Source of the DNA: Aminobacter sp. AP02
GTDB taxonomy: Bacteria; Pseudomonadota; Alphaproteobacteria; Rhizobiales; Rhizobiaceae
Assembly (NCBI RefSeq): GCF_003148805.1
Contig: NZ_QGGX01000025.1
Location: 1 to 62,900 of the forward strand
DNA length: 62,900 bases
Reading direction: 5' to 3'
The notes below the pieces were generated by a model. That model was not told the origin of the DNA, did not search any database, and was given only the letters and a program-made list of their open reading frames with translations. Both the position numbers and the translations under genes were made by a program. Positions 12,359 through 62,900 of this stretch are shown piece after piece. Position 1 is the first letter of the stretch. Each line of letters opens with the position of its first letter.

Positions 12359-13240
12359 TCACATATGTTCGCTTTTCAGGCGGCGGCAAAGATCGTCCAG
12401 CTGTTCGAGCGACCGGTAGCTTATGCGTAGTTCGCCGCCTTTTTCCTTGTGGGCGATCGAAATCTTCATGCCGACGACATCGGTCAGAAGCTTTTCCAGC
12501 GCGATTGTATCCGGATCCTTCTCCACAGGACGCGTTGGCTGCTTTTCCACGATCGCATCCGCCGGCAACTGCGCCAAGGCCTCGGCCTGGCGAACCGACA
12601 GGCCTTCTTCCACGATCCTCTTGGCAAGACCGGCCGGATCCTGCGCCGTGATCAGCGCGCGCGCGTGACCGGCGGACAATTCGCCGTTAATCAGCATATC
12701 GCGCACGACATCCGGCAGCTTAAGCAGCCGCAGCGTGTTGGCCACGTGGCTACGGCTCTTGCCGATGACCTGGCCGAGATCCGCCTGGGTATAGCTGTGA
12801 TCGTCGATCAGTTGCTGATAGCCCATCGCCTCTTCGATGGCGTTGAGATCGGTACGTTGCACGTTCTCGATGATGGCGAGTTCGAGCGCGGTCCGATCAT
12901 TGACATCGCGAACAAGGACCGGGATCTCGTTGACCCCTGCGCGCTGCGCTGCGCGCCAGCGCCGCTCCCCAGCGATGATCTCGTAACGGCCGGACTGTGC
13001 TGCGGGGCGGACAACGACAGGCTGAACCAGCCCATGCTCGCGGATCGACTGAGCGAGATCGGCGAGATCGGCCTCGGCAAAATGCCGGCGTGGGTTGCGC
13101 GGGTTCGGACTGACGAACTCGATAGGTACGCGTCCGTCGGCCGGTGCAGCCGGCTTTTCCGGTGCGGCTGGCTTGTCCATCTCGCCGATAAGGGCGGCGA
13201 GTCCTCGCCCAAGGCGCTTTCTGGAAAGGTCTTCGTTCAT
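12359..13240 (-). CDS. parB: chromosome partitioning protein ParB
   Basis: This 293-residue CTPase clamp binds parS and spreads on origin-proximal DNA. The CTP-binding motif GERRW is at residues 91-95, ENVQRTDLN follows near 124, and a helix-turn-helix covers about 150-178 (QADLGQVIGKSRSHVANTLRLLKLP). The N-terminal KRLGRGLAALIGE is the ParA-stimulating segment. It sits 33 bp after parA in the conserved rsmG-parA-parB order. Six candidate parS sites lie in this window. Confidence 0.97.
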   Translation of the reverse strand: MNEDLSRKRLGRGLAALIGEMDKPAAPEKPAAPADGRVPIEFVSPNPRNPRRHFAEADLADLAQSIREHGLVQPVVVRPAAQSGRYEIIAGERRWRAAQRAGVNEIPVLVRDVNDRTALELAIIENVQRTDLNAIEEAMGYQQLIDDHSYTQADLGQVIGKSRSHVANTLRLLKLPDVVRDMLINGELSAGHARALITAQDPAGLAKRIVEEGLSVRQAEALAQLPADAIVEKQPTRPVEKDPDTIALEKLLTDVVGMKISIAHKEKGGELRISYRSLEQLDDLCRRLKSEHM

Positions 13241-13273: not shown

Positions 13274-14071
13274 TCATGCCGCCCGGAGTTTACGTTCGCG
13301 CCTGATGACTTCCGAGGCGAGCTGCAGATAGGCTTGACTGCCGGAGCACTTCAAATCGTAGAGGATCGCCGGCTTGCCATAGGATGGTGCCTCCGAGATG
13401 CGCACATTACGCGGAATCACCGTGTCGTAGACCTTTTCACCCATATGGGCGCGCACGTCTTCGACCACCTGGTTGGCCAAATTGTTACGGCCATCGAACA
13501 TCGTCAGCACGATGCCCTGGATCGTCAGATCCGGATTGATGGACCTACGCACCTGATCCACCGTCTCGAGCAACTGACTCAAGCCTTCGAGCGCAAAGAA
13601 TTCGCACTGCAACGGCACCAGGACGGAATCCGCCGCGGCCATCGAGTTCAACGTCAATAGGTTGAGCGATGGCGGGCAATCGATCAGCACATAGCTGTAG
13701 CCAGCGGAGCGCTCCGACGAGGCGCGCAAGGCGTTGCGCAGCTTCAGCACCCGATCCGGCGCTGAAGCGATTTCCATTTCGATTCCAAGCAGATCGAGCG
13801 TCGACGGGATGATCGAAAGCCCCGGCACCGCCGTTTCCAGCGCGGCCTGCTCGATCTCGAGTTCGCCCGTCAGCACGTCATATGAGGACACGCTGCGATC
13901 CTTGCGGTCGATGCCGAGACCCGTGCTGGCGTTGCCTTGTGGGTCGAGGTCGATGATGAGCACGCGCTCGCCGATGGCAGCAAGTGCCGTCGCCAGATTG
14001 ATTGCCGTGGTGGTTTTACCGACCCCGCCCTTCTGATTGGCGACTGTGATGATTCTAGGTGTGATCTTCAT
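13274..14071 (-). CDS. parA: chromosome partitioning ATPase ParA
   Basis: This 265-residue deviant-Walker ATPase moves the ParB-parS complex. The motif KGGVGKT is at residues 14-20, with signature Lys15, and DLDPQGNAS and DCPPSLNLLT follow. The frame stays open upstream to 14197, but that would overlap rsmG by 85 bp. The ATG at 14071 starts directly before the ATPase core (MKITPRIITVANQKGG), as in the family, and leaves 41 bp after rsmG. Confidence 0.96.
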   Translation of the reverse strand: MKITPRIITVANQKGGVGKTTTAINLATALAAIGERVLIIDLDPQGNASTGLGIDRKDRSVSSYDVLTGELEIEQAALETAVPGLSIIPSTLDLLGIEMEIASAPDRVLKLRNALRASSERSAGYSYVLIDCPPSLNLLTLNSMAAADSVLVPLQCEFFALEGLSQLLETVDQVRRSINPDLTIQGIVLTMFDGRNNLANQVVEDVRAHMGEKVYDTVIPRNVRISEAPSYGKPAILYDLKCSGSQAYLQLASEVIRRERKLRAA

Positions 14072-14112
14072 GGCTCGACTGCTGTTTTCCGTCTCGTCAC
14101 TTGGCGCCACAA

Positions 14113-14745
14113 TCAGAGGCGGCGCAGGTTCCGAATCTCGAGGATGACTCCCTGCGCGTCGGTCAGGCTCGGATGTTCTACCAGATCGAATCCCCACTGA
14201 TGAGAGCTATCTTCGATTTCCTGGCGGTAATCCCGGCCTTTGTGGAAAAGCGCCTTGGTTCCCCCTTGCAACCAGGGCGCCGACAACTCCAGTAACAGCG
14301 GAAGTGGCGCCAATGCCCGGGCGCTCAAGATCTCAGGCGCGCGGATGCTGCCATGGACGTCTTCGATTCGCTTGGCATGAACTCGCGCCGGCAAGCGAAG
14401 CTCCCCCACTACGGCCTGTAGGAACCCCGCCTTCTTGCGATTGCTTTCTACGAGATCGATGGAGGCCCCTGCGCGCTCTGCAATCATCGAGCCGATGATA
14501 AGTCCCGGGAACCCGCCACCGGAGCCGATATCGAGCCAGTTTTTTGCGTCGCCACCAAGTTTCACGACCTGGGCACTGTCGAGGATATGGCGCTCCCAGA
14601 CATCGTCCAAGGTGGACGGTGCAACGAGATTGATGCGCTGCGCCCACTTACGCAACACGGTTTGGAATGCGATCAGCTTGTCAAATGTTTCACGTGAAAC
14701 GGGACCTGCGACTTCTTGCAACCTTGCATAGGCGTCAGTTTTCAA
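14113..14745 (-). CDS. rsmG: 16S rRNA (guanine527-N7)-methyltransferase
   Basis: This 210-residue SAM-dependent methyltransferase (GidB) methylates G527 of 16S rRNA. The SAM-binding motif [11 protein letters not shown] is at about residues 71-81. Its ATG overlaps the mnmG stop by ATGA, so the two are coupled. The codons for PVSRET (residues 15-20) contain a perfect parS core, so the coding sequence also acts as a probable ParB site. Confidence 0.96.
14687..14700. other. parS site 1 (inside rsmG)
   Basis: GTTTCACGTGAAAC is the exact 14-bp parS core recognised by chromosomal ParB. It is embedded in the rsmG N-terminal codons, about 1.4 kb from parB. Confidence 0.9.
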
Positions 14746-16616: not shown

Positions 16617-16692
16617 CACGGTCTCCAGGAAACATTTGCCGAGACAGATGTCTCCATCTCAGCCTTATGTCAAGAGAATCGCTGGGGTGGTG

Positions 16693-16706
16693 GTTTCACG
16701 TGAAAC
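16693..16706. other. parS site 2 (mnmE-mnmG gap)
   Basis: GTTTCACGTGAAAC, an exact parS core, lies in the non-coding gap upstream of mnmG. It is the first of three sites in under 100 bp. Confidence 0.92.
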
Positions 16707-16740
16707 AACCTGGCCGCGCGACGGGCGAGTCAACCTCCAT

Positions 16741-16754
16741 GTTTCACGTGAATC
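16741..16754. other. parS site 3 (one-base variant)
   Basis: GTTTCACGTGAATC differs from the palindromic parS core at one outer position. The CACGTG centre is intact. Confidence 0.82.
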
Positions 16755-16775
16755 ATGGCCATCCACTGCCAGGAT

Positions 16776-16789
16776 GTTTCACGTGAATC
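16776..16789. other. parS site 4 (one-base variant, touches mnmE stop)
   Basis: GTTTCACGTGAATC, the same variant as site 3, overlaps the last two bases of the mnmE stop codon. The centre-to-centre spacing between sites 3 and 4 is 35 bp. Confidence 0.82.
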
Positions 16790-18107
16790 ATTTTCCAATG
16801 CAGAATTGCGAAAATATCACGTCGAGCAGGTCTTCTACGTCAACCGCCCCGGACAACTTACCGATTCGGTCGCTGGCAAGGCGAAGATTTTCTGCCTTCA
16901 GCTCCAGCATCGCGTCCGAAGCCTGAAGTGCTGAGCCAAGATAGTCTTGTGCCTCGTTGAGCAACTCAACGTGGCGTAGCCGCGAAGGTAGCACATCGCC
17001 GCGTTTTCCAACCGCGTCGCCAGCCCTCTTGCTGATCATTTCCAGCAAATCGTCAATCCCTTGTCCCGTCGCACTGGAGATCATAAGCGCATAACGGTCG
17101 TCCTGGCCGGCATTTGGAAAACGGTCGAGCTTGGTGCCTATTGCAATAAAAGGCACGTCCGATGGGGGATTCAATTCACCCGGCGCTGAGATGTCTTCCA
17201 GGAAAAGCACCAGATCAGCGCCCCTTGCGCGCTCCTTGGCACGCTCGATACCAATCGCTTCCACCTTACCTGCGGGTTCGCGCAAGCCCGCGGTATCGGT
17301 AATGCGCACCTTTAGACCGTTGAGATCAAGAATGGCTTCAACCAGGTCGCGCGTGGTACCGGGTTCGTCGGTTACGATCGCCGCTTCACGTTGCAATAGC
17401 GCGTTAAGGAGGCTCGATTTTCCAGCATTTGGCGCGCCTAGGATGACGACGTCGAAGCCATCACGGATCATCTCGGCCTTACTGTAACTGTTGGCATGGC
17501 CGTTAATCTCTTCGATGAGCAACCGGACATCATCCCACACCTCGCCCGACACCGAGCCCGGTACGTCAGCCTCATCGGCAAAGTCCATCTCGGCTTCAAT
17601 CATCGCCCGCGCATGAATGAGGCGCTTGCGCCATCCCAGATAGAGCTCGCTCTGCGCACCGCTCGAATTCATCACGGCGAATTGACGCTGGGCTTCGGTC
17701 TCGGCATTGATCAGATCGGCAAGTGCTTCGGCCTCCAGGAGGTCCATCTTGCCGTTGAGAAAGGCACGTTTGGTAAATTCGCCGGCGTCCGCCTGCCTGA
17801 AACCGGCCAGCTTGCCAAGCTCGGCGAGCAACGAAGCCACCACGGCTCGGCCACCATGGACCTGGAATTCTCCGCAATCCTCTCCGGTAAAACTGTTGGG
17901 GCCCGGAAAAAACAATGTCAGCCCATGGTCGATCAGACCCCCGCCCCCTGCCCGCAAGGCGCCATAATGCGCTTGGCGTGGTTTAGGGACCAATCCGGAA
18001 ATCATTTCGAGGGCGAATCGAACATTCGGGCCGGAGATACGCACGATGGCCACCCCGGATGGCAGATGACCGCTGGAAAGTGCGGCGATCGAATCGGTGA
18101 ATAGCAT
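16788..18107 (-). CDS. mnmE: tRNA modification GTPase MnmE
   Basis: This 439-residue GTPase (TrmE) pairs with MnmG in tRNA wobble-uridine modification. The G-domain P-loop GAPNAGKS is at residues 224-231, with DEPGTTRD and DTAGLREPAGK (switch regions) after it. The protein ends FCIGK, the C-x-G-K motif needed for formyl transfer. The frame is open to 18254, but the ATG at 18107 gives the family N-terminus (MLFTDSIAALSSG) with a GAGAG upstream, and avoids overlap with the divergent DUF255 gene. Confidence 0.97.
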   Translation of the reverse strand: MLFTDSIAALSSGHLPSGVAIVRISGPNVRFALEMISGLVPKPRQAHYGALRAGGGGLIDHGLTLFFPGPNSFTGEDCGEFQVHGGRAVVASLLAELGKLAGFRQADAGEFTKRAFLNGKMDLLEAEALADLINAETEAQRQFAVMNSSGAQSELYLGWRKRLIHARAMIEAEMDFADEADVPGSVSGEVWDDVRLLIEEINGHANSYSKAEMIRDGFDVVILGAPNAGKSSLLNALLQREAAIVTDEPGTTRDLVEAILDLNGLKVRITDTAGLREPAGKVEAIGIERAKERARGADLVLFLEDISAPGELNPPSDVPFIAIGTKLDRFPNAGQDDRYALMISSATGQGIDDLLEMISKRAGDAVGKRGDVLPSRLRHVELLNEAQDYLGSALQASDAMLELKAENLRLASDRIGKLSGAVDVEDLLDVIFSQFCIGK

Positions 18108-21626: not shown

Positions 21627-22166
21627 TCAGAACGGCTTTACAACCACCAAGATGACGATGACGATCATCAGCACGGTCGGAACCTCGTTGACGATGCGCC
21701 AATGCCGCGACGGTTTTTCGTTGCGGTCCTCGGTAAAACGGCGAACCGACGCCGAGAGATAGCCGTGCACGCCTGAAAGCAGCAGTACGGCCGCGATCTT
21801 GGCATGCAGCCAGCCGCCGGCAAAGCCAAAGCCTTTCCAGGCCAGCCACAGTCCGAACACCCAAGTGACGATCATCGCCGGATTGATGATCGCACGCAGC
21901 AGACGTCGCTCCATGACCTTGAAGGTCTCTGATTGAGCAGAGCCGGTTTCCGCCTCGGCATGATAGACGAACAGCCGCGGCAGATAGAGCATGCCGGCCA
22001 TCCACGAAATCACCGCGATGACATGGATCGCCTTGGCCCAGAGATAGAAGCCGTCGGGCGCAACAGCGAAAAGCAGCGCCGTCAGTGCGGCCAGGATGAT
22101 GACGGAGATGACCGCCCTTTTTCCGGCCGTGGCACCGCTCGACGACCGGGCGCTTTGACCGCTCAT
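21627..22166 (-). CDS. hemJ: protoporphyrinogen oxidase HemJ
   Basis: This 179-residue membrane protein has about four helices and the family block [27 protein letters not shown], whose histidine and following residues are conserved in HemJ (YfeX-unrelated, UPF0093). It oxidises protoporphyrinogen IX to protoporphyrin IX in bacteria lacking HemG and HemY. It overlaps hemE by ATGA, so two heme-synthesis steps are coupled next to the origin. Confidence 0.92.
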
Positions 22167-23197
22167 CGCTGGGTTGCCTTTCGCACCTGGCGTACCATCG
22201 CCTCGACATGCGCCACCGGCGTCTCAGGCGTGATACCGTGGCCAAGGTTGAAGATCAGCGGACCGGAGCCAAGCGCGTTGAGGATGGCGTCCACGCCCTC
22301 TTCCAGAGCCTTACCGCCAACAACGAGCCTGAGCGGGTCGAGATTGCCTTGCACGGCCCCAGCGGCCTGCAGTCGCTGCGCCTGCGACAAGGGTACCGTC
22401 CAGTCGAGGCCAAGGCCGGTGACGCCGGTGCGCTGCCTGTAGCTGTCGAGCTGAGCCCCGGCTCCCTTCGGGAAGCCGATGATCGGAACGTCCGGATAGA
22501 CCGCACGAACCTTGCGCACGATTTCCGCGACCGGCTTGACGCAGCAGACCTCGAAAGTCGCCTCGTCAAGCACACCCGACCAGGAATCGAAGATCTGCAC
22601 CACGTCCGCGCCGGCTTCGATCTGGCGGATGAGATAGGCAGCCGAATGGTTGGCGAGTATCGACAGCAGACGCGCCATCGCTTCGGGCTCGCGATATGCA
22701 AAGAGCCGCGCCGGGGCCTGGTCCGGCGTGCCATGCCCGGCGATCATGTAGGTGGCAACCGTCCAGGGCGCGCCACAGAAGCCGATCAGCGTCGTTTTCT
22801 CGGGCAATTCGCGGCGCAACCGACGCACGGTTTCGTAGACAGGTTCGAGATTCACGTGAAACTTTGAGCCGTCGAGGGCCGCGACACCGTCGGCAGTAAT
22901 TGGCGTCATCATCGGACCCCTGCCTTCCTCGAAGCGCAGGTCGCGGCCGAGCGCATGCGGAACGACCAGAATGTCCGAAAAAAGGATCGAGGCGTCGAAG
23001 TCGAAGCGGCGGATCGGCTGCAGCGTCACCTCAACGGCGAAATCGGGATTGTAGCAGAGGTCGAGGAAGCTTCCGGCCTTCTTCCGCGCTTCGCGATACT
23101 CAGGGAGATAGCGGCCTGCCTGGCGCATCATCCAGAGCGGGGGAACCTCCAGGCTCTCGCCTTTCAGGACTTGGAGCAGAGCGCGTTTCACGGGCAT
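22163..23197 (-). CDS. hemE: uroporphyrinogen decarboxylase
   Basis: This 344-residue enzyme decarboxylates the four acetates of uroporphyrinogen III. Family blocks [44 protein letters not shown] and [15 protein letters not shown] are intact. It begins at the left edge of the putative oriC and is transcribed away from it, as in Caulobacter. The codons for FHVNL hold a parS-like site at 22849-22862. Confidence 0.97.
22849..22862. other. parS site 5 (inside hemE)
   Basis: GATTCACGTGAAAC is the reverse complement of the variant at sites 3 and 4 and differs from the parS core at one outer base. It lies 336 bp from the hemE-ppsR origin region. Confidence 0.75.
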
Positions 23198-23597
23198 CAG
23201 GTCTGCCTTTCCTTGAGCCTTCTATAAACAAAAATTTATATCGAAGGATTCTTCTAATTCTTAGAGTCTGTTGGAATCGAGAATTACGAACTGTCCATAG
23301 GCGGCCTGAGATATCCACTTGTCATAGTGACGCGCAGCCGTTTTCGCCAGCATGGAAAACGTTGGGCAAGAGGCGGATTCGTCGATTTGAATCAGGAATC
23401 TAGCCCGGCGCGTACCATCTGCCGAATCTGTGGATGGACAGGGACAAAAAAACTATCCCCACAATACTCCTCACCCCGGATTCAAAACAGACAGCGAGGC
23501 GAATTGTGGACAAGTCGGCATCTGATACAGTCGCGCCGGCTGCTTCGAGCCAAACCCGCCGTTTATCCACATTTGACCACAGACCCAGGCGCCCGCT
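23198..23597. other. oriC: putative chromosomal replication origin (oriC) between hemE and ppsR
   Basis: This 400-bp non-coding region separates divergent hemE and ppsR (RP001/DUF299), the context of the mapped origin in Caulobacter crescentus and of rhizobial origins. It holds one perfect DnaA box TTATCCACA (23563-23571). Weaker boxes lie at 23505-23513 (reverse TTGTCCACA, 8/9), 23429-23437 (reverse CCATCCACA, 7/9), 23311-23319 (ATATCCACT, 7/9) and 23597-23605 (reverse TTGTTCACA). An AT-rich stretch spans about 23221-23265. Seven GANTC sites lie between 23247 and 23483. No perfect CtrA box TTAA-N7-TTAA was found. parS sites and parAB nearby agree. Confidence 0.82.
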
Positions 23598-24419
23598 GTG
23601 AACAAACCCCAAAGCTTCTTCCATCTGCACCTGATTTCGGACGCTACCGGCGAGACGCTGTTGGCTGCGGGGCGTGCTGCCTCGGCCCAATACAAGGACG
23701 CACGCGCGATCGAGCACATCTACCCGCTGATCCGCACCGAAAAGCAGCTGATGAAGGTGTTCGACGACATCGAGGAAGAGCCGGGCATTGTGCTCTACAC
23801 TGTCGTCGACCAGCACCTTGCCGGCATCATCGACAGCCGCTGCGCGTCGATGGGACTGCCGTGCGTTTCCGTGCTCGAGCCGGTGCTGACGGTCTTCCAG
23901 TCTTATCTCGGCACGCCGGCGGGCCGCCGTGTCGGTGCCCAGCACGTTCTTGACGCTGAGTATTTCCGTCGCATCGATGCGCTCAACTTCACCATGGAGC
24001 ACGATGACGGCCAATTGCCGATCGACATGGAGCAGGCCGACGTGGTCCTGATCGGTATTTCCAGGACATCAAAGACGCCGACCAGCATCTATCTCGCCAA
24101 TCGCGGCATCAAGACGGCCAATATCCCGATCGTGCTGGGCGTTCCCGTACCCGACAGTCTGGTCAAGGCCGAAAAACCGCTGGTCGTGGGTTTGATCGCC
24201 ACCGCCGAGCGCATCTCGCATGTGCGCCAGAACCGGATACTGGGCACGACCATGGCATTCGACGCCCAGGAATATGTAGATCGAGCATCGATCACGGAAG
24301 AGCTGGCTTATGCCCGCAAGATCTGCACGAGGCACAACTGGCCGATGATCGATGTCAGTCGCCGTTCGATCGAAGAGACTGCGGCCGCGATCGTCGCGTT
24401 GCGCAACAAGAGCAGATAG
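23598..24419 (+). CDS. ppsR: pyruvate, phosphate dikinase regulatory protein (DUF299/RP001)
   Basis: This 273-residue bifunctional Ser/Thr kinase-pyrophosphorylase family protein controls PPDK or PEP synthase by reversible phosphorylation. The phosphate-binding loop is [15 protein letters not shown], and [14 protein letters not shown] starts the fold. The start is GTG at 23598, inside a DnaA-box-like sequence at the right edge of oriC. No other in-frame start precedes the conserved N-terminus. Rhizobial PPDK is the likely target, but it is not encoded here. Confidence 0.9.
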
Positions 24420-24553: not shown

Positions 24554-25153
24554 GTGACCGAGAAATTGATCCTGGCCTCTGGAAGTCCCTTCCGCAAAAA
24601 GATGCTTGAAAGTGCCGGCGTCGAGGTTGAAGCGATCCCGGCTGAACTCGATGAGCGCGCACTGGAGGCGCCGCTTGCCGAGAGCGGGGCATCACCCGAG
24701 GACCTGGCGCTGGTCCTGGCCGAAGCCAAGGCTGTCGCGGTTAGCGAGGCGCATCCTGGCCGCCTGGTGCTCGGCTGCGACCAGACGCTTTCTCTGGACG
24801 ACGAGGTTTTTCACAAGCCGGCCGACATGGAGGCCGCACGTCGCCATCTGCTCAAGCTGTCGGGACGGACGCACCAGTTGAACAGCGCCGCCGTTCTTGT
24901 CCGCGACGGCGAGCCGCTTTGGCGTCACGTGGCTGTCGCATCGATGACCATGCGCCACCTGGAGCCCGCCTTCATCGGTCGCCACCTTGCTCGCGTTGGC
25001 GACAAGGCGCTATCGAGCGTCGGCGCCTTTCAGATCGAAGGTGAAGGGATCCAGCTCTTCGAAAAGATCGAGGGCGATTATTTTACGATCGTCGGGCTGC
25101 CGCTGTTGGCGGTACTGGCGGAACTGAGGAAATTGGGCGCGATTGATGGGTGA
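24554..25153 (+). CDS. maf: Maf-family nucleotide pyrophosphatase
   Basis: This 199-residue protein starts [14 protein letters not shown], the Maf signature, and has GCDQTL, closer to the YceF (7-methyl-GTP pyrophosphatase) subgroup than to the dTTP/UTP subgroup. It is likely a house-cleaning enzyme for modified nucleotides. The start is GTG with GGAG upstream. It overlaps aroE by 8 bp and heads maf-aroE-coaE. Confidence 0.9.
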
Positions 25154-37971: not shown

Positions 37972-38622
37972 ATGCGTGTTGCCATCATTGACTACGGCTC
38001 GGGCAATCTGCGCTCGGCGACCAAGGCCTTCGAGCGAGCCGCTCGGGAAGCCGGCATAACGGCCGAGATCGATCTCACCGCCGATGCGAACCGCGTGCTC
38101 ACAGCCGACCGCATCGTGCTGCCCGGCGTCGGTGCCTATGCCGATTGCGCGCGTGGCCTGCGCGCCGTTGACGGCATGTGGGAGGCGGTCGAGGAAGTCG
38201 CCATCCGCAGGGCGCATCCCTTCCTCGGGATCTGCGTCGGCATGCAGCTGATGTCGGAGCACGGGCTCGAAAAGACCGTCACGCAAGGCTTTGGCTGGAT
38301 TGCGGGCGACGTCAAGGAGATCACGCCCTCCGACCCGTCGCTCAAGATTCCGCAGATCGGCTGGAACACGATTCACGTGAAACATGCCCATCCGGTGTTC
38401 GATGGCATCGCCACCGGCCCCACGGGCCTGCACGCCTATTTCGTGCATTCCTACCATCTCGACGCGACAAACGAGAAGCAGGTGCTGGCGACCGCCGACT
38501 ATGGCGGCCAGGTCACCGCTGCGGTTTCGCGCGACAACCTTGTCGGCACGCAGTTTCATCCCGAAAAGAGCCAGGCGCTGGGCCTGGCCCTCATCGCCAA
38601 TTTCCTGAGGTGGAAGCCATGA
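37972..38622 (+). CDS. hisH: imidazole glycerol phosphate synthase glutaminase subunit
   Basis: This 216-residue class-I glutamine amidotransferase supplies ammonia to HisF. The nucleophile Cys is in [10 protein letters not shown], and His-Glu of the triad are in TQFHPEKSQ. The frame is open upstream in DUF2628, but the ATG at 37972 ([15 protein letters not shown]) is the family start. Codons for IHVKH hold a parS-like site. It overlaps hisA by ATGA. Confidence 0.97.
38370..38383. other. parS-like site 6 (inside hisH)
   Basis: GATTCACGTGAAAC is identical to site 5, one base off the parS core, but lies about 15 kb on the other side of the putative oriC. A chance match in coding DNA is possible. 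Confidence 0.6.
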
Positions 38623-44954: not shown

Positions 44955-45315
44955 TCGGGAACCCTCGTTCGATTTGACGCCAATGTCCGGTCTGCGGGCC
45001 GGACGCCGCTGTCCCGAGGGACTGAAGCCAGCCAGAAACAGAAAAGACGAGCGATTTCAAATCATTAATCGATTTAAAAATTTTGAAATCTATCTAAATC
45101 GTTTAAAAGGGGAGAGAGAGCCGAACATCGACCAAGCAGGGGGAAGGTTTTTTGTTCGAGGTTCCGCTCCGGCACCCCATATAGCAAGGGCACCGGTAGT
45201 GGCGGTTGCGCTCCTGGCGATCGGAGGGTATGCCACATTTTGTACCTAATTTGTCCTGCAGAAGCCCTGCTCGAAAGCAGGAAGGGACACCCCGCTCATG
45301 AGGGAGCCACTGGAA
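44955..45315. promoter_or_regulatory. pckA-chvI divergent regulatory region with LacI-like operators
   Basis: No gene is seen in these 361 bp. The AT-rich core at 45053-45108 contrasts with its GC-rich surroundings. It contains AATCGATT (45067-45074) and AATCGTTT (45097-45104), both matching the AAxCGxTT core of LacI-family operators. They are 30 bp apart centre to centre. A 9-bp inverted repeat GATTTCAAA/TTTGAAATC (45053-45061, 45082-45090) overlaps them. They lie 100-150 bp upstream of pckA, so control by a PckR-like repressor is plausible but inferred. Confidence 0.55.
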
Positions 45316-49288: not shown

Positions 49289-50689
<1,401 letters not shown>

Positions 50690-50716
50690 CCATAGCGCAT
50701 AAACATACAAGATGTT

Positions 50717-50747
50717 GAAGCCGGGCGATTGACTTTCGCCCGGCTTC
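50717..50747 (+). terminator. intrinsic terminator after ahcY
   Basis: The perfect 12-bp stem GAAGCCGGGCGA/TCGCCCGGCTTC has a 7-nt loop and is followed by TCTTTTTG. Confidence 0.93.
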
Positions 50748-50885
50748 TCTTTTTGCGCAAACGCCTTCTTCACGGCGATTCGCCCAGCGGCTATTGTGGC
50801 GTGATTCGCCACGCGCCCGTTCTCGGCGGGAATTTTGGGGCGCATCAGGGCGGTCTTGCATTCAGGCGGCGGAGAGGAACAAGAC

Positions 50886-53435
50886 ATGCCGGGGGAATAC
50901 CCGCTTCTAGCGGGACAGGCCGTTTCCGGCGGCCACCAGGATTCGCAGATGGCCCCTTCGAGCGGCAGATGGCAGACCGTGCGCCGGCTCGGCAGCGGCG
51001 CCGCCGTGGCCCTGCTCGGTGCCACCGCTCTTTGCACGCCGTTCGGATTTGCTCATGCCCAGCAGGCAGCCGTCGCCGGCCTGCCCGTCGGCACCGCCGA
51101 TGTCATCCAGATCGCCACGTTCGTCGGCGTCATGGGCGCTGCCTTGATCTCTGCCGTCGCGCTGATCCGCGAAAAAGCGCGTACCGGCGCGGAGAATGCC
51201 GAGCTTCGCGGACGCGTTGCCGACCTCAACGCTTCGTTGCAACGTTCCGAAGCCCTGCTCAATCTGCGCGACCAGCGCGTCATTGTCTGGGCCAGCGAAA
51301 ACAAGAAGCCTGAACTGGTAGGTTCGCTGCCGATCGATACCGGAGCGCCGGACGAACGCGCAGCCTTTCTCGGCTTTGGCCGCTGGCTGATGCCGCGTTC
51401 GGCGGCAGCACTCGAAAACGCCATCGCTGCCCTGCGCGACAAGGGCACCGCTTTCGAATTGATCGCCGAGACCCATGCTGGCGCAGCTCTTGAAGTCCAG
51501 GGACGCAAGAGCGGCGCCCATGTCATCGTCCGGTTCATTTCGATTTCCGAGGCACAGCGTGGCCAGGCGCGGCTGAAACTCGACAACCAGCGCCTCAGCT
51601 CGGAATTCGAAACGCTGGTCGCCCTGATCGACGCAGTCGACATGCCGTTTTGGATGCGCGACGCCGATGGACGTCTGAAATGGGTCAACAAGGCTTTTGC
51701 CAGAGCCGTCGAAGCAGTGGATTCCGCCGCAGCCATCCGAGACGGCAAGGAGTTTCTGGGTACCCAGTCCCGCGAAGCAATCGCCCAGCAGCACATCTCG
51801 CGGCCTGTGTTCCAGCAGACGCTGTCGACAGTCATCGACGGTGACCGCAAGATGTTCGCCGTGACGGACGTCGTTGGCAAGGAAGGCTCGGCCGGCATCG
51901 CTGCCGACATGAGCGCTGCCGAAGCCATCCGCGAGGAATACAGCCAGGTCGTGCGCAGCCACGCTGACACGCTCGATCAGGTCGCGACCGCTGTTGCCAC
52001 CTTCGACGCCAACCAGAAGCTGCGCTTCTACAACAATGCCTTCCAGAAGCTCTGGGACCTCGACGCCGGTTACATCTCGAGCGCGCCCGACAATGCGCTG
52101 CTGCTCGACCGGCTGCGCAGCGAACGCAAGCTGCCGGAGCAGCCGGAATGGCGCCGCTGGAAGGAGAACCTTCTTTCCGCCTATCGCACCGTCGATCCGC
52201 AGGAGCATCTGTGGCATCTACCCGATGGCCGCACCATCCGCGTCGTCGCCAACCCGCAGCCCAAGGGCGGCGTGACCTGGGTGTTTGAGAACCTGACCGA
52301 GAAGATCGATCTCGAAAGCCGCTACACAACAGCGGTGCGCGTGCAGGGCGAAACGCTCGATAATCTCGCCGAAGGCGTGGTCGTTTTTGGTCCCGACGGC
52401 CGTATCCGCCTGTTCAATCCGGCCTTCGGCCAGCTCTGGGGCGTCTCGCCTGATGCGCTTCGCCAGAGCACGCATATCTCGGCCATTCGCGCCGAATGCG
52501 ACACGCGCGCCGAAAATAGCCCTTGGGGTGATTTCGTCGCTGCCGTCACCGGCTTCGACGAGCGCAGCGATCGCCACGGCCAGACCGAACTCAGGAACGG
52601 TTCGGTGCTTCAGCACGCCGTCATCCACCTGCCCAACGGCCAGGTGATGCTGACCTTTGTCGACGTCACCGACAGCGTCAATGTCGAGCGCGCACTGAAG
52701 GACAAAAACGAGGCGCTGCAACGCGCCGACCAGATCAAGAACGAGTTCGTCCAGCACGTTTCCTACGAGCTGCGTTCGCCGCTCACCAATATCATCGGCT
52801 TCACCGAGCTGCTGTCGCTGCCCGGCACCGGGCCGCTGTCGCAGCGCCAGCGCGAATATGTCGAGCATATTGGCTCGTCGTCGGGCGTGCTTTTGACCAT
52901 CGTCAACGACATCCTCGACCTCGCCACCGTCGATGCCGGCATCATGCAGCTCGAGATCGCCGAGGTGCATGTCGATCGCTCCATCGAGGCCGCAGCCGAC
53001 CTCGTCGCCGACCGGCTGGAAGAGCATTCGATCAAGCTTGCCATCGACACCAGAAGCGCGCCCAAGAGCTTCAATGGCGACGAAACGCGCGTGCGCCAGA
53101 TCCTCTACAATCTGCTCAGCAATGCCGTGAATTACGCGCCCGCCGCGAGCACCATCACGCTCGCCTGTCGCCAGCGTGCCGAGGGCGTCGAGTTCTCGAT
53201 TCATGACGACGGTCCCGGCATGCCGCCGGAAGTGCTCGACACGATGTTCCAGCGCTTTGAATCCCGCGTCAATGGCGGCCGCAAGCGCGGTGCCGGCCTC
53301 GGCCTGTCGATCGTCAAGAGCTTCGTCGAACTGCATGGCGGCTCGGTCCGCATCGACAGCGGCAAGGACCTCGGCACCACTGTCGTCTGCCTGTTCCCAG
53401 ACGTGCCCGCCGGCGTCCGCGTCGCGGCGGAGTAG
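50886..53435 (+). CDS. divL: DivL-type PAS sensor kinase with Tyr at the phosphorylation site
   Basis: This 849-residue protein has two N-terminal hydrophobic segments (about 37-60 and 72-93), PAS-like regions near 245-330, 363-470 and 490-600, a HisKA region and HATPase (NLLSNAVNYA, HDDGPGMP, RGAGLGLSIVKSF). The H-box reads FVQHVSYELRSPLTNIIGF: the usual SHELRTPL His is replaced by Y627, while H624 is three residues earlier. This is the hallmark of DivL, which in Caulobacter binds DivK and controls CckA-CtrA. ATG 50886 has GGAGAGGAA upstream; an open frame from 50835 is less likely. Confidence 0.88.
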   Translation: MPGEYPLLAGQAVSGGHQDSQMAPSSGRWQTVRRLGSGAAVALLGATALCTPFGFAHAQQAAVAGLPVGTADVIQIATFVGVMGAALISAVALIREKARTGAENAELRGRVADLNASLQRSEALLNLRDQRVIVWASENKKPELVGSLPIDTGAPDERAAFLGFGRWLMPRSAAALENAIAALRDKGTAFELIAETHAGAALEVQGRKSGAHVIVRFISISEAQRGQARLKLDNQRLSSEFETLVALIDAVDMPFWMRDADGRLKWVNKAFARAVEAVDSAAAIRDGKEFLGTQSREAIAQQHISRPVFQQTLSTVIDGDRKMFAVTDVVGKEGSAGIAADMSAAEAIREEYSQVVRSHADTLDQVATAVATFDANQKLRFYNNAFQKLWDLDAGYISSAPDNALLLDRLRSERKLPEQPEWRRWKENLLSAYRTVDPQEHLWHLPDGRTIRVVANPQPKGGVTWVFENLTEKIDLESRYTTAVRVQGETLDNLAEGVVVFGPDGRIRLFNPAFGQLWGVSPDALRQSTHISAIRAECDTRAENSPWGDFVAAVTGFDERSDRHGQTELRNGSVLQHAVIHLPNGQVMLTFVDVTDSVNVERALKDKNEALQRADQIKNEFVQHVSYELRSPLTNIIGFTELLSLPGTGPLSQRQREYVEHIGSSSGVLLTIVNDILDLATVDAGIMQLEIAEVHVDRSIEAAADLVADRLEEHSIKLAIDTRSAPKSFNGDETRVRQILYNLLSNAVNYAPAASTITLACRQRAEGVEFSIHDDGPGMPPEVLDTMFQRFESRVNGGRKRGAGLGLSIVKSFVELHGGSVRIDSGKDLGTTVVCLFPDVPAGVRVAAE

Positions 53436-53443
53436 CACCTTTG

Positions 53444-54955
53444 ATGACGGCCAGATCGCTGGAGCTTTTCCTCCCCGACGATGTCGCGACCACGCGGCTG
53501 GGCGAGGACCTGGCGCTGGCGCTCAAAGCCGGCGACGTGCTTCTGCTCGACGGCGATCTGGGGGCGGGCAAGACGACATTGGCGCGTGGCCTGATCCGCG
53601 CGCTGGCCGACGACCCGATGCACGAGGTGCCGAGCCCGACCTTCACGCTGGTGCAGAGCTACGACACGCCGCTGCCTGTCCATCATTTCGATCTGTATCG
53701 ACTGTCTTCGGCCGACGAGCTTGAAGAACTCGGTTTTGATGAAGCAATCTCCTCTGGCGTGGCGCTGGTCGAATGGCCCGAGCGCGCGGCGGACGCCATG
53801 CCCGCGACCAGCCTGCGCGTGGCGCTCGACCATCAGGGCGATGGCCGCAGAGTGACGATATCGGGCACAGGTACCGCCTTCGATCGTGTTGCCCGCTCGC
53901 TTGCCACGCGTGCATTTCTCGTCGCCTCCGGCTGGGGCGAGGCTCGCCGCGCCCGTTTCATGGGCGACGCCTCGGCCCGAGCTTACGAAACGGTCGCACG
54001 CGACGGCAGCGATCCGCTGGTGCTGATGAACTCGCCACGGCTGGTGCTCGGGCCACCGGTGCGCGATGGCAAGCCCTACGCCGAAATCGCCCACACGGCG
54101 CAGTCGGTGACAGCTTTCGTTGGCATTGACCGGGCGCTCGCCGCAGGCGGTGTCTCGGTGCCCGGCATCGTTGCCCAGGATCTCGACCGGGGCTTTTTGC
54201 TCCTCGAACACCTCGGCAATGGTGCCTTCCTCGACCCGGATGGCAATCCCATCGCCGAGCGCTATGCTGCCGCCGCCGAAGTGCTGGCAATGATTCACGG
54301 GAAACATTTTCCCGATCACATGGAGGCTGCCCCCGCCGTCTTCCACGACGTGCCGCCTTTCGATCGCGACGCCTTGATGATCGAGGTCGAGCTGCTGGTC
54401 GACTGGTATGTGCCGGCTGTCACAGGCGCGCCGGCGTCCGAAGCGCTGCGCGAAGGCTACCGTGCCGCCTGGAACTCTGTTTTCGATCGCCTCGCGGACA
54501 AGCAATACGGGCTGGTCCTGCGCGACTACCATTCGCCCAACATCATCTGGCGCGGCGACCGCAAGGGCCACGACCGGCTCGGCATCATCGATTTCCAGGA
54601 TGCGCTGATTGGCCCGGTTGCCTATGACGTCGCCTCGCTCGCCATGGACGCGCGGGTAACCGTTGCCGAAGATCTCGAACACAGCACCATCGATGCCTAT
54701 GTCGCCGCCCGCCATGCCGCTGGCAACTTCGACGAGGCGGCCTTCCGAGAAGCTTATGCCATCATGGCGGCGCAGCGCAATTCGAAGATACTCGGCATCT
54801 TCGTCCGCCTCGACCGGCGCGATGGCAAGCCGCAATATCTGAAGCACTTGCCGCGCATCCGCGACTATCTCGGCCGCGCCCTTTCCCATCCGGCGCTCGC
54901 CGAACTGTGCGATTTCTACCGGAAAAACCGCCTGCTCGAGGAATTCGACACGTGA
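53444..54955 (+). CDS. tsaE: bifunctional TsaE - AmgK-like sugar kinase
   Basis: This 503-residue protein joins two domains. Residues 1-150 are TsaE, with P-loop GDLGAGKT at 37-44 and PSPTFTLVQSY...HFDLYRL, an ATPase needed for t6A tRNA modification. Residues about 160-500 form an APH-type kinase (LRDYHSPNIIWRG and IIDFQDALIGP hold the catalytic Asp and Asn), like AmgK, which phosphorylates MurNAc/GlcNAc at C1 in wall recycling. A TTG lies one codon upstream of the chosen ATG. It is 8 bp after divL and overlaps the murU-like gene by GTGA. Confidence 0.9.
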   Translation: MTARSLELFLPDDVATTRLGEDLALALKAGDVLLLDGDLGAGKTTLARGLIRALADDPMHEVPSPTFTLVQSYDTPLPVHHFDLYRLSSADELEELGFDEAISSGVALVEWPERAADAMPATSLRVALDHQGDGRRVTISGTGTAFDRVARSLATRAFLVASGWGEARRARFMGDASARAYETVARDGSDPLVLMNSPRLVLGPPVRDGKPYAEIAHTAQSVTAFVGIDRALAAGGVSVPGIVAQDLDRGFLLLEHLGNGAFLDPDGNPIAERYAAAAEVLAMIHGKHFPDHMEAAPAVFHDVPPFDRDALMIEVELLVDWYVPAVTGAPASEALREGYRAAWNSVFDRLADKQYGLVLRDYHSPNIIWRGDRKGHDRLGIIDFQDALIGPVAYDVASLAMDARVTVAEDLEHSTIDAYVAARHAAGNFDEAAFREAYAIMAAQRNSKILGIFVRLDRRDGKPQYLKHLPRIRDYLGRALSHPALAELCDFYRKNRLLEEFDT

Positions 54956-55686
54956 GTGGAGCGAAAATTCCGTCCGTCGCCATGGTTCTCGCTGCCGGTC
55001 TCGGCAAGCGCATGCGGCCGATTACGGACACGATTCCAAAGCCGCTGGTGCGGATATCAGGCAAGACCCTGCTAGACTGGGGGCTCGACAGCATCGCCGA
55101 AGCTGGCGTCGAACGTGCCGTAGTCAACGTCCACTATCTGCCCGACCAGATAGTTGAGCATGTCGCTTCGCGCCACGCGCCGCGCATCGAAATCTCCGAC
55201 GAGCGCGACGGGCTTCTCGATTCCGCCGGCGGCATCGTCAGGGCATTGCCCCGGCTTGGCACGGCACCGTTCTACATCGTCAACGCCGACACCTTCTGGA
55301 TCGACCACGGCACGCCGAACCTGACCCGCCTCGCCCTTGCCTGGGATGCCGGCCGCATGGATATTCTCCTGATGCTCGCGGACCTAGAACAGGCGACCGG
55401 ACACTCTGGTGGCACCGACTTCCTCGTCGCGTCGGACGGAACGTTGCGCCGTGCCAAGGGCGCACCCGAAGGCCTGATCTATGCCGGTGCGGCGATCGTC
55501 CATCCGCGCCTCTTCGCCAACGCTTCTGAGGCGCCGCATTCTCTCAATCGCTATTTCGACGAGGCCATATCAGCCGGCCGCCTGTTCGGCATGCATATGC
55601 AAGGCAGCTGGATCACGGTCGGCACGCCCGACGCCATCCCGCAGGCGGAAGCCGCGGTGAAAAGGGCATTGGCGGAGGCCCAATGA
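54952..55686 (+). CDS. murU: nucleotidyltransferase, MurU-like (MurNAc-1-phosphate uridylyltransferase)
   Basis: This 244-residue sugar-phosphate nucleotidyltransferase begins with MVLAAGLGKRMRPITDTIPKPLV, the NTP-binding signature. NVHYLPDQI, DGLLDSAGGIVRALP and YIVNADTFWID follow. Together with the AmgK-like kinase it would make UDP-MurNAc directly, the anabolic recycling route known in Pseudomonas. The GTG start overlaps the previous stop, so coupling is tight. Its TGA overlaps addB by ATGA. Confidence 0.88.
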   Translation: MSGAKIPSVAMVLAAGLGKRMRPITDTIPKPLVRISGKTLLDWGLDSIAEAGVERAVVNVHYLPDQIVEHVASRHAPRIEISDERDGLLDSAGGIVRALPRLGTAPFYIVNADTFWIDHGTPNLTRLALAWDAGRMDILLMLADLEQATGHSGGTDFLVASDGTLRRAKGAPEGLIYAGAAIVHPRLFANASEAPHSLNRYFDEAISAGRLFGMHMQGSWITVGTPDAIPQAEAAVKRALAEAQ

Positions 55687-58600
55687 GCGGCCGTGCGTCG
55701 CCACGCGTTTATTCGATCCCGCCAGGCATTCCTTTCCTGCCGACGTTGGCGCAGGCGCTGCTCGATGGCCGGCTGATCCCTGATTTCCGCTACGCCGGCG
55801 ATCCGCTCTCGCTCGCCGATGTCACCATCTATGTGCCGACGCGCCGCGCCGCGCGTGCTCTGCGCGGTGTCTTTGTCGATGCCGCCGGCGGTGGTTCGGC
55901 CATCCTGCCGGTCATCAAGCCGCTGGGCGAGTTCGACGAGGACGAGGCGGCGTTCGAGGCCGAGGGCAGCGGCGCGCTCGACCTTGCCCCGCCTGTCTCG
56001 TCCACCGACCGCCTGCTGTTGCTTGCGCCTTTGGTGCGCGCCTGGAAGCGTCGACTGCCGGCTCATGTCGCGGCGCTGTTCGAAGAAGAGATTGTCGTTC
56101 CGGCATCCGCCGCTGACGCCATCTGGCTGGCGCGCGATCTTGCCGGGCTGATGGACGAGATCGAAACCGAAGGCTCCGACTGGTCGCGGCTCGCCGGGCT
56201 GGTTACAGGCGAATTGTCCGGCTGGTGGCAGGTCACGCTCGACTTCCTCTCTATCGTCACCAGAGCCTGGCCGGAGATGCTGAAGGAGCGCGGCCAATCC
56301 AACCCTGCTGCGCACCGCAGCGCGTTGATCCGCCTTGAGGCCGAAAGGCTGAAGCGCAACCCGCCCGCCGGGCCGGTCATCGCCGCCGGTTCCACCGGCT
56401 CTATCCCGGCCACAGCCGAGCTGCTCGCCGCGATTGCGCGCCTGCCGCGCGGGGCGGTTGTGCTGCCCGGGCTGGACGCCACACTCGACCAGCGTGCCTA
56501 TGAGACCATCACCGAAGGCGCCAGGGCGTCGGTGCTCGGCCATCCGCAATATGGCTTGGCCAAGCTGCTCGGCAAGATCGGCATTCTTCGCCACGACGTC
56601 GAGGACCTCGCCATACCGTCCCAAGCGATGGTGCGGCGGGCGTCCATTGTCGGCGAGGCACTGCGGCCGGCCGAAACCACCGACGCCTGGGCCGACAAGC
56701 GCGGCGCCGTCGATGATGCCGAGATCGCGGATGCTCTTGCAGGCGTCACCTTGCTCGAAGCGGCGCATGAACGCGACGAGGCGGCCGCCATTGCCATTGC
56801 ACTTCGCCAGGCCGTCGCCGAGCCGGGCCATCGCGCAGCTCTGGTCACCGGCGACCGCAATCTGGCGCGCCGTGTCGCGTCCGAACTGCGGCGCTTCGGC
56901 ATTCAGGCCGACGATTCCGGCGGCATGCCGCTTGCCAATACGCCGCCCGCCGCGCTGTTGCGTACGATGCTCGATGCCGCCTTCCGCCCCGGCGACCCGG
57001 TCGCGGTGCTGTCGCTGCTCAAGCACCCTCTGCTGCGGCTTGGCCTGCAGCGGGCGGCGGTTCGGCGCGCCGCCGAGACGCTGGAGCTCGTCGTCCTGCG
57101 CGGCGGCGTTGGTCGGCCTGACATTGCCGGGCTGGCCGAAGCCTTCGACGGCAGGATGACCGATGTCGCCGGTGGATCGCGAAAGCCGTTCTGGTTCGAT
57201 CGCATCACCGTGCGCCGCATCGAAGAGGCCCGCGACATCGCCACAAGGCTCGTCACTGGCCTCGCGCCGCTGTTTGCCTTCCGAGGCGATGCGTCGGTCG
57301 AACTCGCGGCGATCGTCAAGGCAACGGTCGAAGCGCTCGAAAATCTCGGCCGCGATGAGCTTGGCGGCCTTGGTACGCTCTGTGACGGCGACGCCGGCGC
57401 CAAGCTCGCGGAAGCACTTCGCTCGCTGGTCGCGGCGCAAGCGTCATTCACCTTCGCCGCCGACGAATGGCCCGACGTCATGGACGCGCTGGTGGCGCCC
57501 GAGGCGGTCAAGCCGGCGCAAGGTGCCGACCGCGCCATCGCGATCTGGGGTGCGCTCGAAGCCCGTTTGCAGACCGTCGACACGCTGGTCATCGGCGGGC
57601 TCAACGAGGGCAGCTGGCCGCGCAAGGCCGAGGCCGACCGCTTCATGTCGCGCGTCATGAAATCAGGCATCGACCTAGAGCCGCCAGAGCGCCGCATCGG
57701 CCTCGCCGCCCATGATTTCCAGATGGCGATGGGTGCGAAAAACGTCGTGCTGTCTCGCTCGGCGCGTTCGGGCGATGCGCCTGCGGTGCCATCACGCTGG
57801 CTGCAGCGGCTGTTGACCTACACCGGCCCCGACCATGCCGCGATATTGCGCAAGCGCGGTGAAAAGCTGCTGCATTGGGCGCGTGCGCTCGATGCTGGCC
57901 AAAAGACCGATTTCGCCGCCCGGCCCGACCCCAAGCCGCCGGTGGCCGTCAGGCCGCGCCGCTTCAGCATCACCGAGATCGAAACACTTCGCCGCGACCC
58001 CTACGCCGTTTATGCCAGGCGTATCCTTGGCCTGTCGGCGATCGACCCGCTGGTGCGCGACCCGGGTGCCGCCGAGCGCGGCACGCTCTTCCACGATATC
58101 CTGCATCTGTTTTCCTCGACCATCGTCGATCCGCGCGCGCCCAATGCGTTCGAGGCCCTTATCGCCGCTGGCCGCCACTGCTTTGCCGAAGCTGCCCTTC
58201 CCGCGGATGTCGAGGCCGTCTGGTGGCCGCGCTTCGAGCGGCTGGCGGTCAACATCCTTGTGTGGGAACGCAGCCGCGCCGAGGCCGTAGCCAGCCGCCA
58301 CGCCGAAGAAGGCGCCTCCGCCGTCGAGGTCGGCCTCACCGGCATAACCCTGTCGGGCCGCGCCGACCGCATCGACGTTCTCGCCGGTGGCATGGCCGAT
58401 ATCCTCGACTACAAGACGGGTTCGTCGCCGTCCAAGGCACAGGCGCATACGCTGGTCTCGCCGCAGCTGGCGCTCGAAGGCGCCCTGCTCCGGCGCGGTG
58501 CCTTCCGCGAGCTTGGCCAGCGCGAGCCCTCGCAATTGGCCTTCGTCAGGCTGAAGCCCAACGGTGAGGTGTTCGAGGAATCGATCCTCGAACACAACCG

Positions 58601-58805
58601 AAAGCCGAAATCGGCCATCGAGCTGTCCGAAGAGGCATGGACCCGGCTGGAGCAGCTCTTGCTGCACTACAACGATCCAACCACCGGTTATCTCTCCCGT
58701 GCCCTGCCCTTCCGCGAAGGCGAGACGGACGGCGACTACGACCATCTCGCCCGCGTGCTCGAATGGTCGGCCGGCGGTGACGGCGGTGCGGAGGGCGAGG
58801 AATGA
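55683..58805 (+). CDS. addB: double-strand break repair protein AddB
   Basis: This 1040-residue protein is the AddB subunit of the alphaproteobacterial AddAB helicase-nuclease. The N-terminal part is helicase-like but its P-loop is degenerate (FLPTLAQALLDGRL, VYVPTRRAARALRG). The C-terminal RecB-type nuclease has GTLFHDILHLF and ILDYKTGSSPSKAQAHTLVSPQLALEGALL. I see only one cysteine around the nuclease (RHCFAEA), so the iron-sulfur staple of Bacillus AddB seems absent. It overlaps murU and addA by 4 bp each. Confidence 0.96.
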   Translation: MSGRASPRVYSIPPGIPFLPTLAQALLDGRLIPDFRYAGDPLSLADVTIYVPTRRAARALRGVFVDAAGGGSAILPVIKPLGEFDEDEAAFEAEGSGALDLAPPVSSTDRLLLLAPLVRAWKRRLPAHVAALFEEEIVVPASAADAIWLARDLAGLMDEIETEGSDWSRLAGLVTGELSGWWQVTLDFLSIVTRAWPEMLKERGQSNPAAHRSALIRLEAERLKRNPPAGPVIAAGSTGSIPATAELLAAIARLPRGAVVLPGLDATLDQRAYETITEGARASVLGHPQYGLAKLLGKIGILRHDVEDLAIPSQAMVRRASIVGEALRPAETTDAWADKRGAVDDAEIADALAGVTLLEAAHERDEAAAIAIALRQAVAEPGHRAALVTGDRNLARRVASELRRFGIQADDSGGMPLANTPPAALLRTMLDAAFRPGDPVAVLSLLKHPLLRLGLQRAAVRRAAETLELVVLRGGVGRPDIAGLAEAFDGRMTDVAGGSRKPFWFDRITVRRIEEARDIATRLVTGLAPLFAFRGDASVELAAIVKATVEALENLGRDELGGLGTLCDGDAGAKLAEALRSLVAAQASFTFAADEWPDVMDALVAPEAVKPAQGADRAIAIWGALEARLQTVDTLVIGGLNEGSWPRKAEADRFMSRVMKSGIDLEPPERRIGLAAHDFQMAMGAKNVVLSRSARSGDAPAVPSRWLQRLLTYTGPDHAAILRKRGEKLLHWARALDAGQKTDFAARPDPKPPVAVRPRRFSITEIETLRRDPYAVYARRILGLSAIDPLVRDPGAAERGTLFHDILHLFSSTIVDPRAPNAFEALIAAGRHCFAEAALPADVEAVWWPRFERLAVNILVWERSRAEAVASRHAEEGASAVEVGLTGITLSGRADRIDVLAGGMADILDYKTGSSPSKAQAHTLVSPQLALEGALLRRGAFRELGQREPSQLAFVRLKPNGEVFEESILEHNRKPKSAIELSEEAWTRLEQLLLHYNDPTTGYLSRALPFREGETDGDYDHLARVLEWSAGGDGGAEGEE

Positions 58806-62338: not shown

Positions 62339-62413
62339 CACAAGAACTGCTTGACCACGGGTCCGCCCACTACCACATATGGCGCGACAGCTAACCGCAA
62401 GAGGATCGGCATT

Positions 62414-62737
62414 ATGGCCACCGTCAAGATCGACAACAGCAATTTCAAGTCCGGCGTGCTCGAGGCCAAGGAGCCCGTCGTCGTCGATTTCTGGGCTGAA
62501 TGGTGCGGCCCCTGCAAGATGATCGGCCCGTCGCTCGAAGAGATTTCCAACGAGCTCGCCGGCAAGGTCAAGATCACCAAGGTCAACATCGACGAGAACC
62601 CCGAGATCGCCGCCCAGTTCGGCGTCCGCTCGATTCCGACGCTGATGATCTTCAAGGATGGCGAAGTCGCCGACATCAAGGTTGGCGCCGCCCCCAAGAC
62701 CGCGCTGTCGAGCTGGATCAACGGCAACGTCGCCTGA
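62414..62737 (+). CDS. trxA: thioredoxin 1
   Basis: This 107-residue redox protein has the active site WCGPCK ([21 protein letters not shown]), the cis-Pro in IPTLMIF and the usual NIDENPE turn. It reduces disulfides of ribonucleotide reductase and others. The frame opens at 62351, but ATG 62414 gives the family N-terminus. A terminator follows. Confidence 0.97.
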
Positions 62738-62766
62738 TACTTGCTGCGCAGTTCCCGAATGTGAAA

Positions 62767-62788
62767 AAGCCCGGTTGAGACCGGGCTT
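62767..62788 (+). terminator. intrinsic terminator after trxA
   Basis: Arms AAGCCCGG and CCGGGCTT with a 6-nt loop are followed by CTCTTTT; A-rich sequence on the other side may let it work both ways. To its right (62789-62900) I see no recognisable gene. Confidence 0.88.
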
Positions 62789-62900
62789 CTCTTTTGGGGC
62801 GGCACCTGTCAAGCACAGCTTTCCGCCCTGTGCTTGCGAGGCACATGCTGATTGTTTTGGTTGCGGTAGTTGTTGTCGATCTCTCGGCGCGTGCTGATCG

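Follow-up and report, generated by a model that had tools for sequence, protein, structure and literature searches.

The chromosomal origin of Caulobacter, Cori, was located experimentally between hemE and a COG1806/DUF299 gene, and the same paper sets criteria for alphaproteobacterial origins of the hemE type (PMC1914354). Cori harbors a 40-bp AT-rich region and several mostly weak DnaA sites (moderate G-boxes and very weak W-boxes), together with five CtrA sites and a site for the integration host factor (IHF) (PMC1914354; PMC4468827), and GANTC motifs were described in it as well (PMC3973325). Ori-Finder relies on hemE as one of its indicator genes (PMC3794950); the sections covered of PMC13342612, PMC4414408 and PMC7851589 contain nothing on hemE. 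Here, a window of 62,900 nucleotides was analyzed, which is one whole contig (NZ_QGGX01000025.1) of the 72-contig, 5.6-Mb draft genome of Aminobacter sp. AP02, with the focus on the gap between hemE and the DUF299/COG1806 gene ppsR. The chromosomal oriC of Sinorhizobium meliloti reportedly adjoins hemE, a finding attributed to Sibley and colleagues in 2006.

The gap is very probably the oriC of the main chromosome of this Rhizobiaceae bacterium near Mesorhizobium, and it would belong to the hemE/ppsR type known from Caulobacter. The type is already known because the same gene pair flanks the experimentally located origin of Caulobacter (PMC1914354), as an earlier sequence-only reading of the window had pointed out. 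That reading had also proposed the gap as oriC, which is supported at the level of prediction by a pair of DnaA boxes unique in the genome, by parS sites, by the gaps of relatives that lack ppsR and by box enrichment in 64 relatives. Sequence anatomy, conservation, the parS neighborhood and a rough agreement of strand bias in relatives were observed directly and are described below.

Results

Anatomy of the hemE-ppsR gap

The divergent non-coding gap of 400 bp spans positions 23198-23597, exactly as proposed earlier. Both flanking genes pass the cut-offs of curated families, namely hemE (uroporphyrinogen decarboxylase, 22163-23197, minus strand; TIGR01464) and ppsR (regulator of phosphoenolpyruvate synthase/pyruvate phosphate dikinase, 23598-24419, plus strand, GTG start; NF003742). 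The position of the gap thus resembles that of Cori, which lies between hemE and a DUF299/COG1806 gene (PMC1914354). With 50.5% GC as compared to about 61% in its surroundings, the gap exceeds the genome in AT content, and the AT-rich stretch noticed before turned out to be real: the lowest stability of any 100 bp in the window was obtained at positions 23220-23319, a probable DNA unwinding element with a core at about 23223-23262. Among all 40-bp stretches of the window, the one from 23223 ranks second in instability, reminiscent of the 40-bp AT-rich region of Cori (PMC1914354; PMC4468827). The first rank goes to a stretch inside a 148-bp gap at 44955-45102 that contains neither CCACA cores nor GANTC.

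Of eight criteria taken from PMC1914354, among them also the lack of a second such intergenic region in the genome and a shift of GC skew, three apply to the gap when counted strictly, i.e. position, box cluster and AT content; the box-cluster criterion describes an intergenic region of more than 300 bp with a cluster of DnaA boxes, and 400 bp with five CCACA cores were found here. CtrA and IHF sites, which are also among the criteria, distinguish the gap from Cori. No match to either CtrA consensus (TTAA-N7-TTAA and TTWW-N7-TTWW) was obtained in the gap, and direct CtrA binding is therefore not expected there. CtrA sites are not required of the class, because most other origins are without them according to PMC4468827 and none were reported for some in PMC1914354. 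The IHF consensus WATCAN5WTR likewise had no match in the gap, where a diverged site may still be present.

DnaA boxes

The gap contains the perfect DnaA box TTATCCACA at 23563-23571 (plus strand), where the sequence-only reading had placed it; it is kept in nine of ten genomes of the genus, the tenth carrying TTTTCCACA. A second good box, TTGTCCACA, is located at 23505-23513 on the minus strand and is kept in all ten. The earlier count of one perfect and four weaker boxes agrees with the five CCACA cores in the gap, as compared to 0.48 expected at the window rate. Among the weak DnaA-like sites, TTGACCACA (23573-23581, plus strand), ATCCCCACA (23455-23463, plus strand; judged by eye from the alignment) and ATATCCACT (23311-23319, plus strand) are each identical in eight of the ten genomes, and TTGTTCACA (23597-23605, minus strand), which lies over the ppsR start codon, is identical in all of them. 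At CCATCCACA (23429-23437, minus strand) the CCACA core is kept throughout the ten, while the outer bases vary. The sites at 23311 and 23597 come in addition to the five cores counted above. Several mostly weak DnaA sites are also a property of Cori (PMC1914354; PMC4468827); the G-boxes described for Cori are moderate and its W-boxes very weak (PMC4468827), whereas the gap has the perfect TTATCCACA. One-mismatch boxes stand near the ppsR start codon in some distant relatives, too.

Over the whole window, the number of boxes with at most one mismatch did not exceed chance (6 versus 3.73 expected; 13 of 100 shuffles gave as many), and for this reason clustering and conservation were used as evidence. 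The 5.6-Mb genome contains 18 copies of the pattern TTRTCCACA and 26 of its reversed control. The only close pair genome-wide is the one in the gap, 58 bp apart, the next closest pair being separated by 7.5 kb; for 18 random sites in 5.6 Mb, roughly 0.005 pairs within 100 bp would be expected. Within the window, 14 intergenic gaps of at least 100 bp were called mechanically, and five CCACA cores were present only in the hemE-ppsR gap (0-2 in the others). Another divergent gap of similar size (412 bp) contains neither CCACA cores nor GANTC.

Conservation in relatives

The best 80 of 597 candidate ppsR loci were taken as a set of named relatives, and the nearest named PpsR relatives among the matches listed belong to Mesorhizobium (up to 88%). 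In 64 of these 80 loci hemE lies divergently beside ppsR, with gaps of about 354-545 bp, the ends of which were derived from protein matches and are hence approximate. All 64 gaps are lower in GC than their own locus. Together they hold 129 boxes with at most one mismatch as compared to 4.7 in a first-order Markov control, at least one box being present in 56 gaps and at least two in 40. When the set was thinned to 44 dissimilar gaps, 76 boxes were counted versus 3.6 expected. A similar layout was found in M. ciceri WSM1271 (L139, NC_014923.1), in which a 404-bp hemE-ppsR gap, likewise a predicted origin, shares both boxes (at -94 and -35) and has six GANTC sites, with five parS-like sites within about 10 kb. 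When ten members of the genus were aligned, the DnaA sites and the AT-rich stretch stood out as conserved blocks. The hemE match of one relative (G032, locus L087) carries an internal TGA.

Twelve of the 61 genomes searched (our own included) had no ppsR match, and hemE was found in 11 of these 12. In nine of the 11 ppsR-less relatives, maf is located next to hemE, leaving a gap of 441-621 bp, and boxes with at most one mismatch are present in five of these nine gaps. In the other two (G014 and G031), no match to ppsR, maf, aroE or coaE was obtained within 1.5 kb.

parS sites and strand bias

Six parS-like sites with at most two mismatches were detected in the draft genome, all six on this contig (14.7-54.3 kb), while a control pattern gave none; the parS sites of the sequence-only reading are thereby borne out. 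Those at 14686-14701, 16692-16707, 16740-16755 and 16775-16790 have one mismatch, those at 38369-38384 and 54291-54306 two. In M. ciceri WSM1271, all five parS-like sites are located at 909.5-918.1 kb, next to the ppsR start at 908.8 kb. The partition genes and rsmG, which had been named as neighbors, were recovered at 12.4-14.7 kb, all on the minus strand: parB (ParB/RepB/Spo0J family, 12359-13240), a gene for a ParA-like ATPase (13274-14197), whose family matches stay below the cut-offs and whose name also rests on its place beside parB, and rsmG (14113-14745).

Since the GC skew of the window itself was ambiguous to the right of 35 kb, complete relatives were sampled and a model with one origin and one terminus was fitted to 40 stretches of G002, 23 of G009, 17 of G024 and 20 of M. 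ciceri. Both GC skew and sites resembling FtsK orienting polar sequences (KOPS) were used. In G009, all nine stretches sampled between -132 and -2552 kb of ppsR had negative skew, as compared to positive skew in eight of ten on the other side. KOPS-like sites numbered 1 plus and 27 minus on the first, negative-skew side and 14 plus and 2 minus on the second. An exception is the stretch at -52 kb of ppsR, which runs contrary to the rest of its side. In G002, the strand-corrected third-position skew changes between about 680 and 760 kb, where ppsR lies (751 kb), with a second change between 3.2 and 3.5 Mb; the bin at 820 kb is contrary, and the skew is weak between dnaA (0.4 kb) and 0.6 Mb. The strand bias of G024 agreed only broadly with the hemE locus. 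Strand bias is thus compatible with an origin at hemE but coarse, with a resolution of tens to hundreds of kb; on its own it can neither place the origin nor decide against dnaA.

Evidence against the assignment and alternative origins

Several observations weigh against an origin in the gap. Eight of the 64 named gaps and four of the nine gaps of ppsR-less relatives are without any box of at most one mismatch. In 16 of the 80 named loci, hemE is missing within 2.5 kb of ppsR (L178, L182, L191-L193, L195-L197, L199, L201-L203, L205, L206, L210 and L215; eight are titled Bradyrhizobium and three Bartonella), and the origin flanks may therefore be rearranged there. A higher homology than in the surroundings, another criterion of PMC1914354, was not found beyond single blocks: overall the gap is no more conserved than its neighborhood, with 88% identity to G002 (percentile 72) and 75% to G009 (percentile 7). 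The skew of the window turns negative again from 50 kb (50000-62900), and all nine KOPS-like sites of the window lie on the minus strand, including six to the right of the gap, where plus would be expected. The fitted origins also missed hemE to varying extents. Both measures gave 680 kb in G002, which is 72 kb off hemE at 752 kb, and in G009 (hemE at 5051 kb) KOPS gave 5080 kb and skew 5160 kb, i.e. 29 and about 110 kb off. For G024, with hemE at 1549 kb, KOPS favored 1660-2080 kb and skew about 1200 kb or less, both more than 100 kb away. In M. ciceri, KOPS favored 980-1200 kb, 70-290 kb from hemE (909 kb), and the sampled skew was best at about 5.4-5.5 Mb, which does not fit the hemE locus. 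The gene order in 50000-62900 is collinear with G002 and G009.

An alternative is an origin at dnaA, as in many bacteria. The genome has one Bac_DnaA match (contig C10), and dnaA had a slight lead over hemE in G009 (39 to 35 by KOPS, 6321 to 5213 by skew) and a marginal one by skew in G024 (4949 to 4835), which also counts against the hemE locus. On the other hand, both measures favored hemE in G002 (28 to 16 by KOPS, 8326 to 5618 by skew), as did KOPS in G024 (39 to 29), and the best KOPS fit of G009 lies 29 kb from hemE and not at dnaA. As the distance between dnaA and ppsR is about 0.75 Mb in G002 and, if the replicon is circular, about 0.85 Mb in G009, and as the parS sites are found at hemE, initiation at dnaA is considered very unlikely. 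The coarse resolution of the strand bias would also accommodate an origin close by, for instance beside parAB or in a different gap no more than tens of kb away, and a second stretch of low stability does exist near 45.0 kb. Yet among the 14 window gaps only the one between hemE and ppsR combines the box cluster with eight GANTC sites, which makes a neighboring position extremely improbable.

A further explanation is that the gap serves only as a divergent promoter region of hemE and ppsR where DnaA regulates transcription, and that replication starts elsewhere on the chromosome. The persistence of a 441-621 bp gap in nine of the 11 ppsR-less relatives means that a mere ppsR promoter is insufficient; hemE still needs a promoter in these genomes, and a hemE promoter would remain compatible with the gap. 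A scan of 23150-23650 returned no sigma-70 promoter-like site (0.3 expected), although this consensus may not fit the bacterial group. The parS sites and the clustering of boxes point to an origin rather than a mere promoter, and we regard a purely regulatory role of the gap as exceedingly unlikely.

If the gap is oriC, as we favor, DnaA would bind the good boxes at 23505 and 23563, both in the ppsR-side half, and then spread over the weak sites at 23429, 23455, 23573 and 23597. It would subsequently melt the AT-rich stretch beside hemE (23220-23319), where the helicase would be loaded and from which two forks would presumably leave. ParB bound to the nearby parS sites would then separate the sister origins. 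With the origin of a draft genome pinned to 400 bp, analyses of replication arms, gene dosage and growth rate (from coverage ratios) would come within reach.

GANTC sites in the predicted origin

Eight GANTC sites, the target of the cell-cycle methylase CcrM, are present in the gap as compared to 0.72 per 400 bp in the window, which makes it the densest 400 bp of the window; 0-3 sites were counted in the other mechanically called gaps. Across 460 kb of G002, too, the gap is the 400-bp stretch richest in GANTC. Seven control motifs matched in composition occur 0-2 times in the gap. Six of the eight sites are kept in at least nine of the ten genus members, whereas control motifs had 0-1 sites kept in at least eight. 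Conserved in all ten are the sites at 23247-23251, 23264-23268, 23376-23380, 23389-23393 and 23424-23428, and the site at 23274-23278 is kept in nine; those at 23396-23400 and 23479-23483 are kept in fewer than eight. At three of the conserved sites (23247-23251, 23264-23268 and 23424-23428) the middle base varies from species to species, but the GANTC motif persists. In G002, the next GANTC-dense spot (7 per 400 bp) is located at about 758.7 kb, some 6-7 kb from the predicted origin.

Across the 64 named gaps, which belong to Hyphomicrobiales, 275 GANTC sites were counted versus 99.7 expected by composition and 136 by the Markov control, and in the 44 thinned gaps 188 versus 94 expected. The number per gap ranges from 1 to 12 by genome, so the feature is not universal. 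An open reading frame (ORF) for a RAMA-domain methylase of 377 aa is present on contig C11, and of 14 control genomes searched for this domain, Caulobacter alone gave a match; the enzyme would presumably be specific for GANTC. A match to GcrA was also obtained in the genome, while the control search for GcrA matched Sulfolobus as well.

GANTC sites in the origin are shared with Cori (PMC3973325). The idea of methylation control was proposed earlier for the Caulobacter origin, where a model from 2008 had methylation of Cori required for initiation (PMC2217572). Overproduction of CcrM led to extra chromosomes there, and initiation control was normal in cells without ccrM, which did not bear out the methylation idea (PMC3973325). 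An excess of GANTC was described at repABC origins (PMC6090056; PMC11514494), and control of ori2 by hemimethylation was proposed (PMC11514494). Among the titles and opening lines of abstracts covered, no GANTC count for hemE-type origins of Hyphomicrobiales was found; subscription papers mostly lay outside this scope, and novelty is not claimed. The GANTC cluster is the sole part of the analysis that goes beyond routine annotation, and GANTC in the Caulobacter origin has already been published (PMC3973325).

As a mere suggestion, the eight CcrM sites may make the state of the origin depend on methylation. That CcrM methylation of these sites gates initiation in this order appears doubtful. 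If it did, this would be new, unlike the negative result in Caulobacter, and would bear on the polyploidy of nodule bacteria. Dysregulation of CcrM was proposed to drive endoreduplication in Ensifer (PMC8725594), and the GANTC cluster would then be a direct cis target of the dysregulation proposed there for Ensifer bacteroids. The crowding of methylase sites in the origin recalls oriC of E. coli with Dam and SeqA only speculatively: here the methylase is of the CcrM type with GANTC as its presumed target, and a search of the genome for the SeqA family (PF03925) gave no match.

Neighboring genes and further perfect boxes

Other genes around the gap are of the kind found at origins. On the hemE side these include mnmG, mnmE, rho and hemJ besides parB, the parA-like gene and rsmG, and on the ppsR side maf, aroE, coaE and dnaQ. 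The maf-like gene (24554-25153, plus strand) is the one that adjoins the gap in nine of the 11 ppsR-less relatives. The window yielded neither tRNA genes nor any Rfam family at gathering score.

The perfect box TTATCCACA occurs four times in the genome as compared to 18 for the reversed pattern, a scarcity that looks as if perfect DnaA boxes were avoided. Of the three copies outside the gap, one (locus L033, near 5360) precedes an ORF for an nrdJ-like ribonucleotide reductase by about 0.54 kb, perhaps reflecting control of nucleotide supply by DnaA. Of the remaining two, one immediately precedes a small Hpt-like ORF and the other falls within the 3' end of an ORF resembling a nitroreductase gene; the three ORFs were named by eye.
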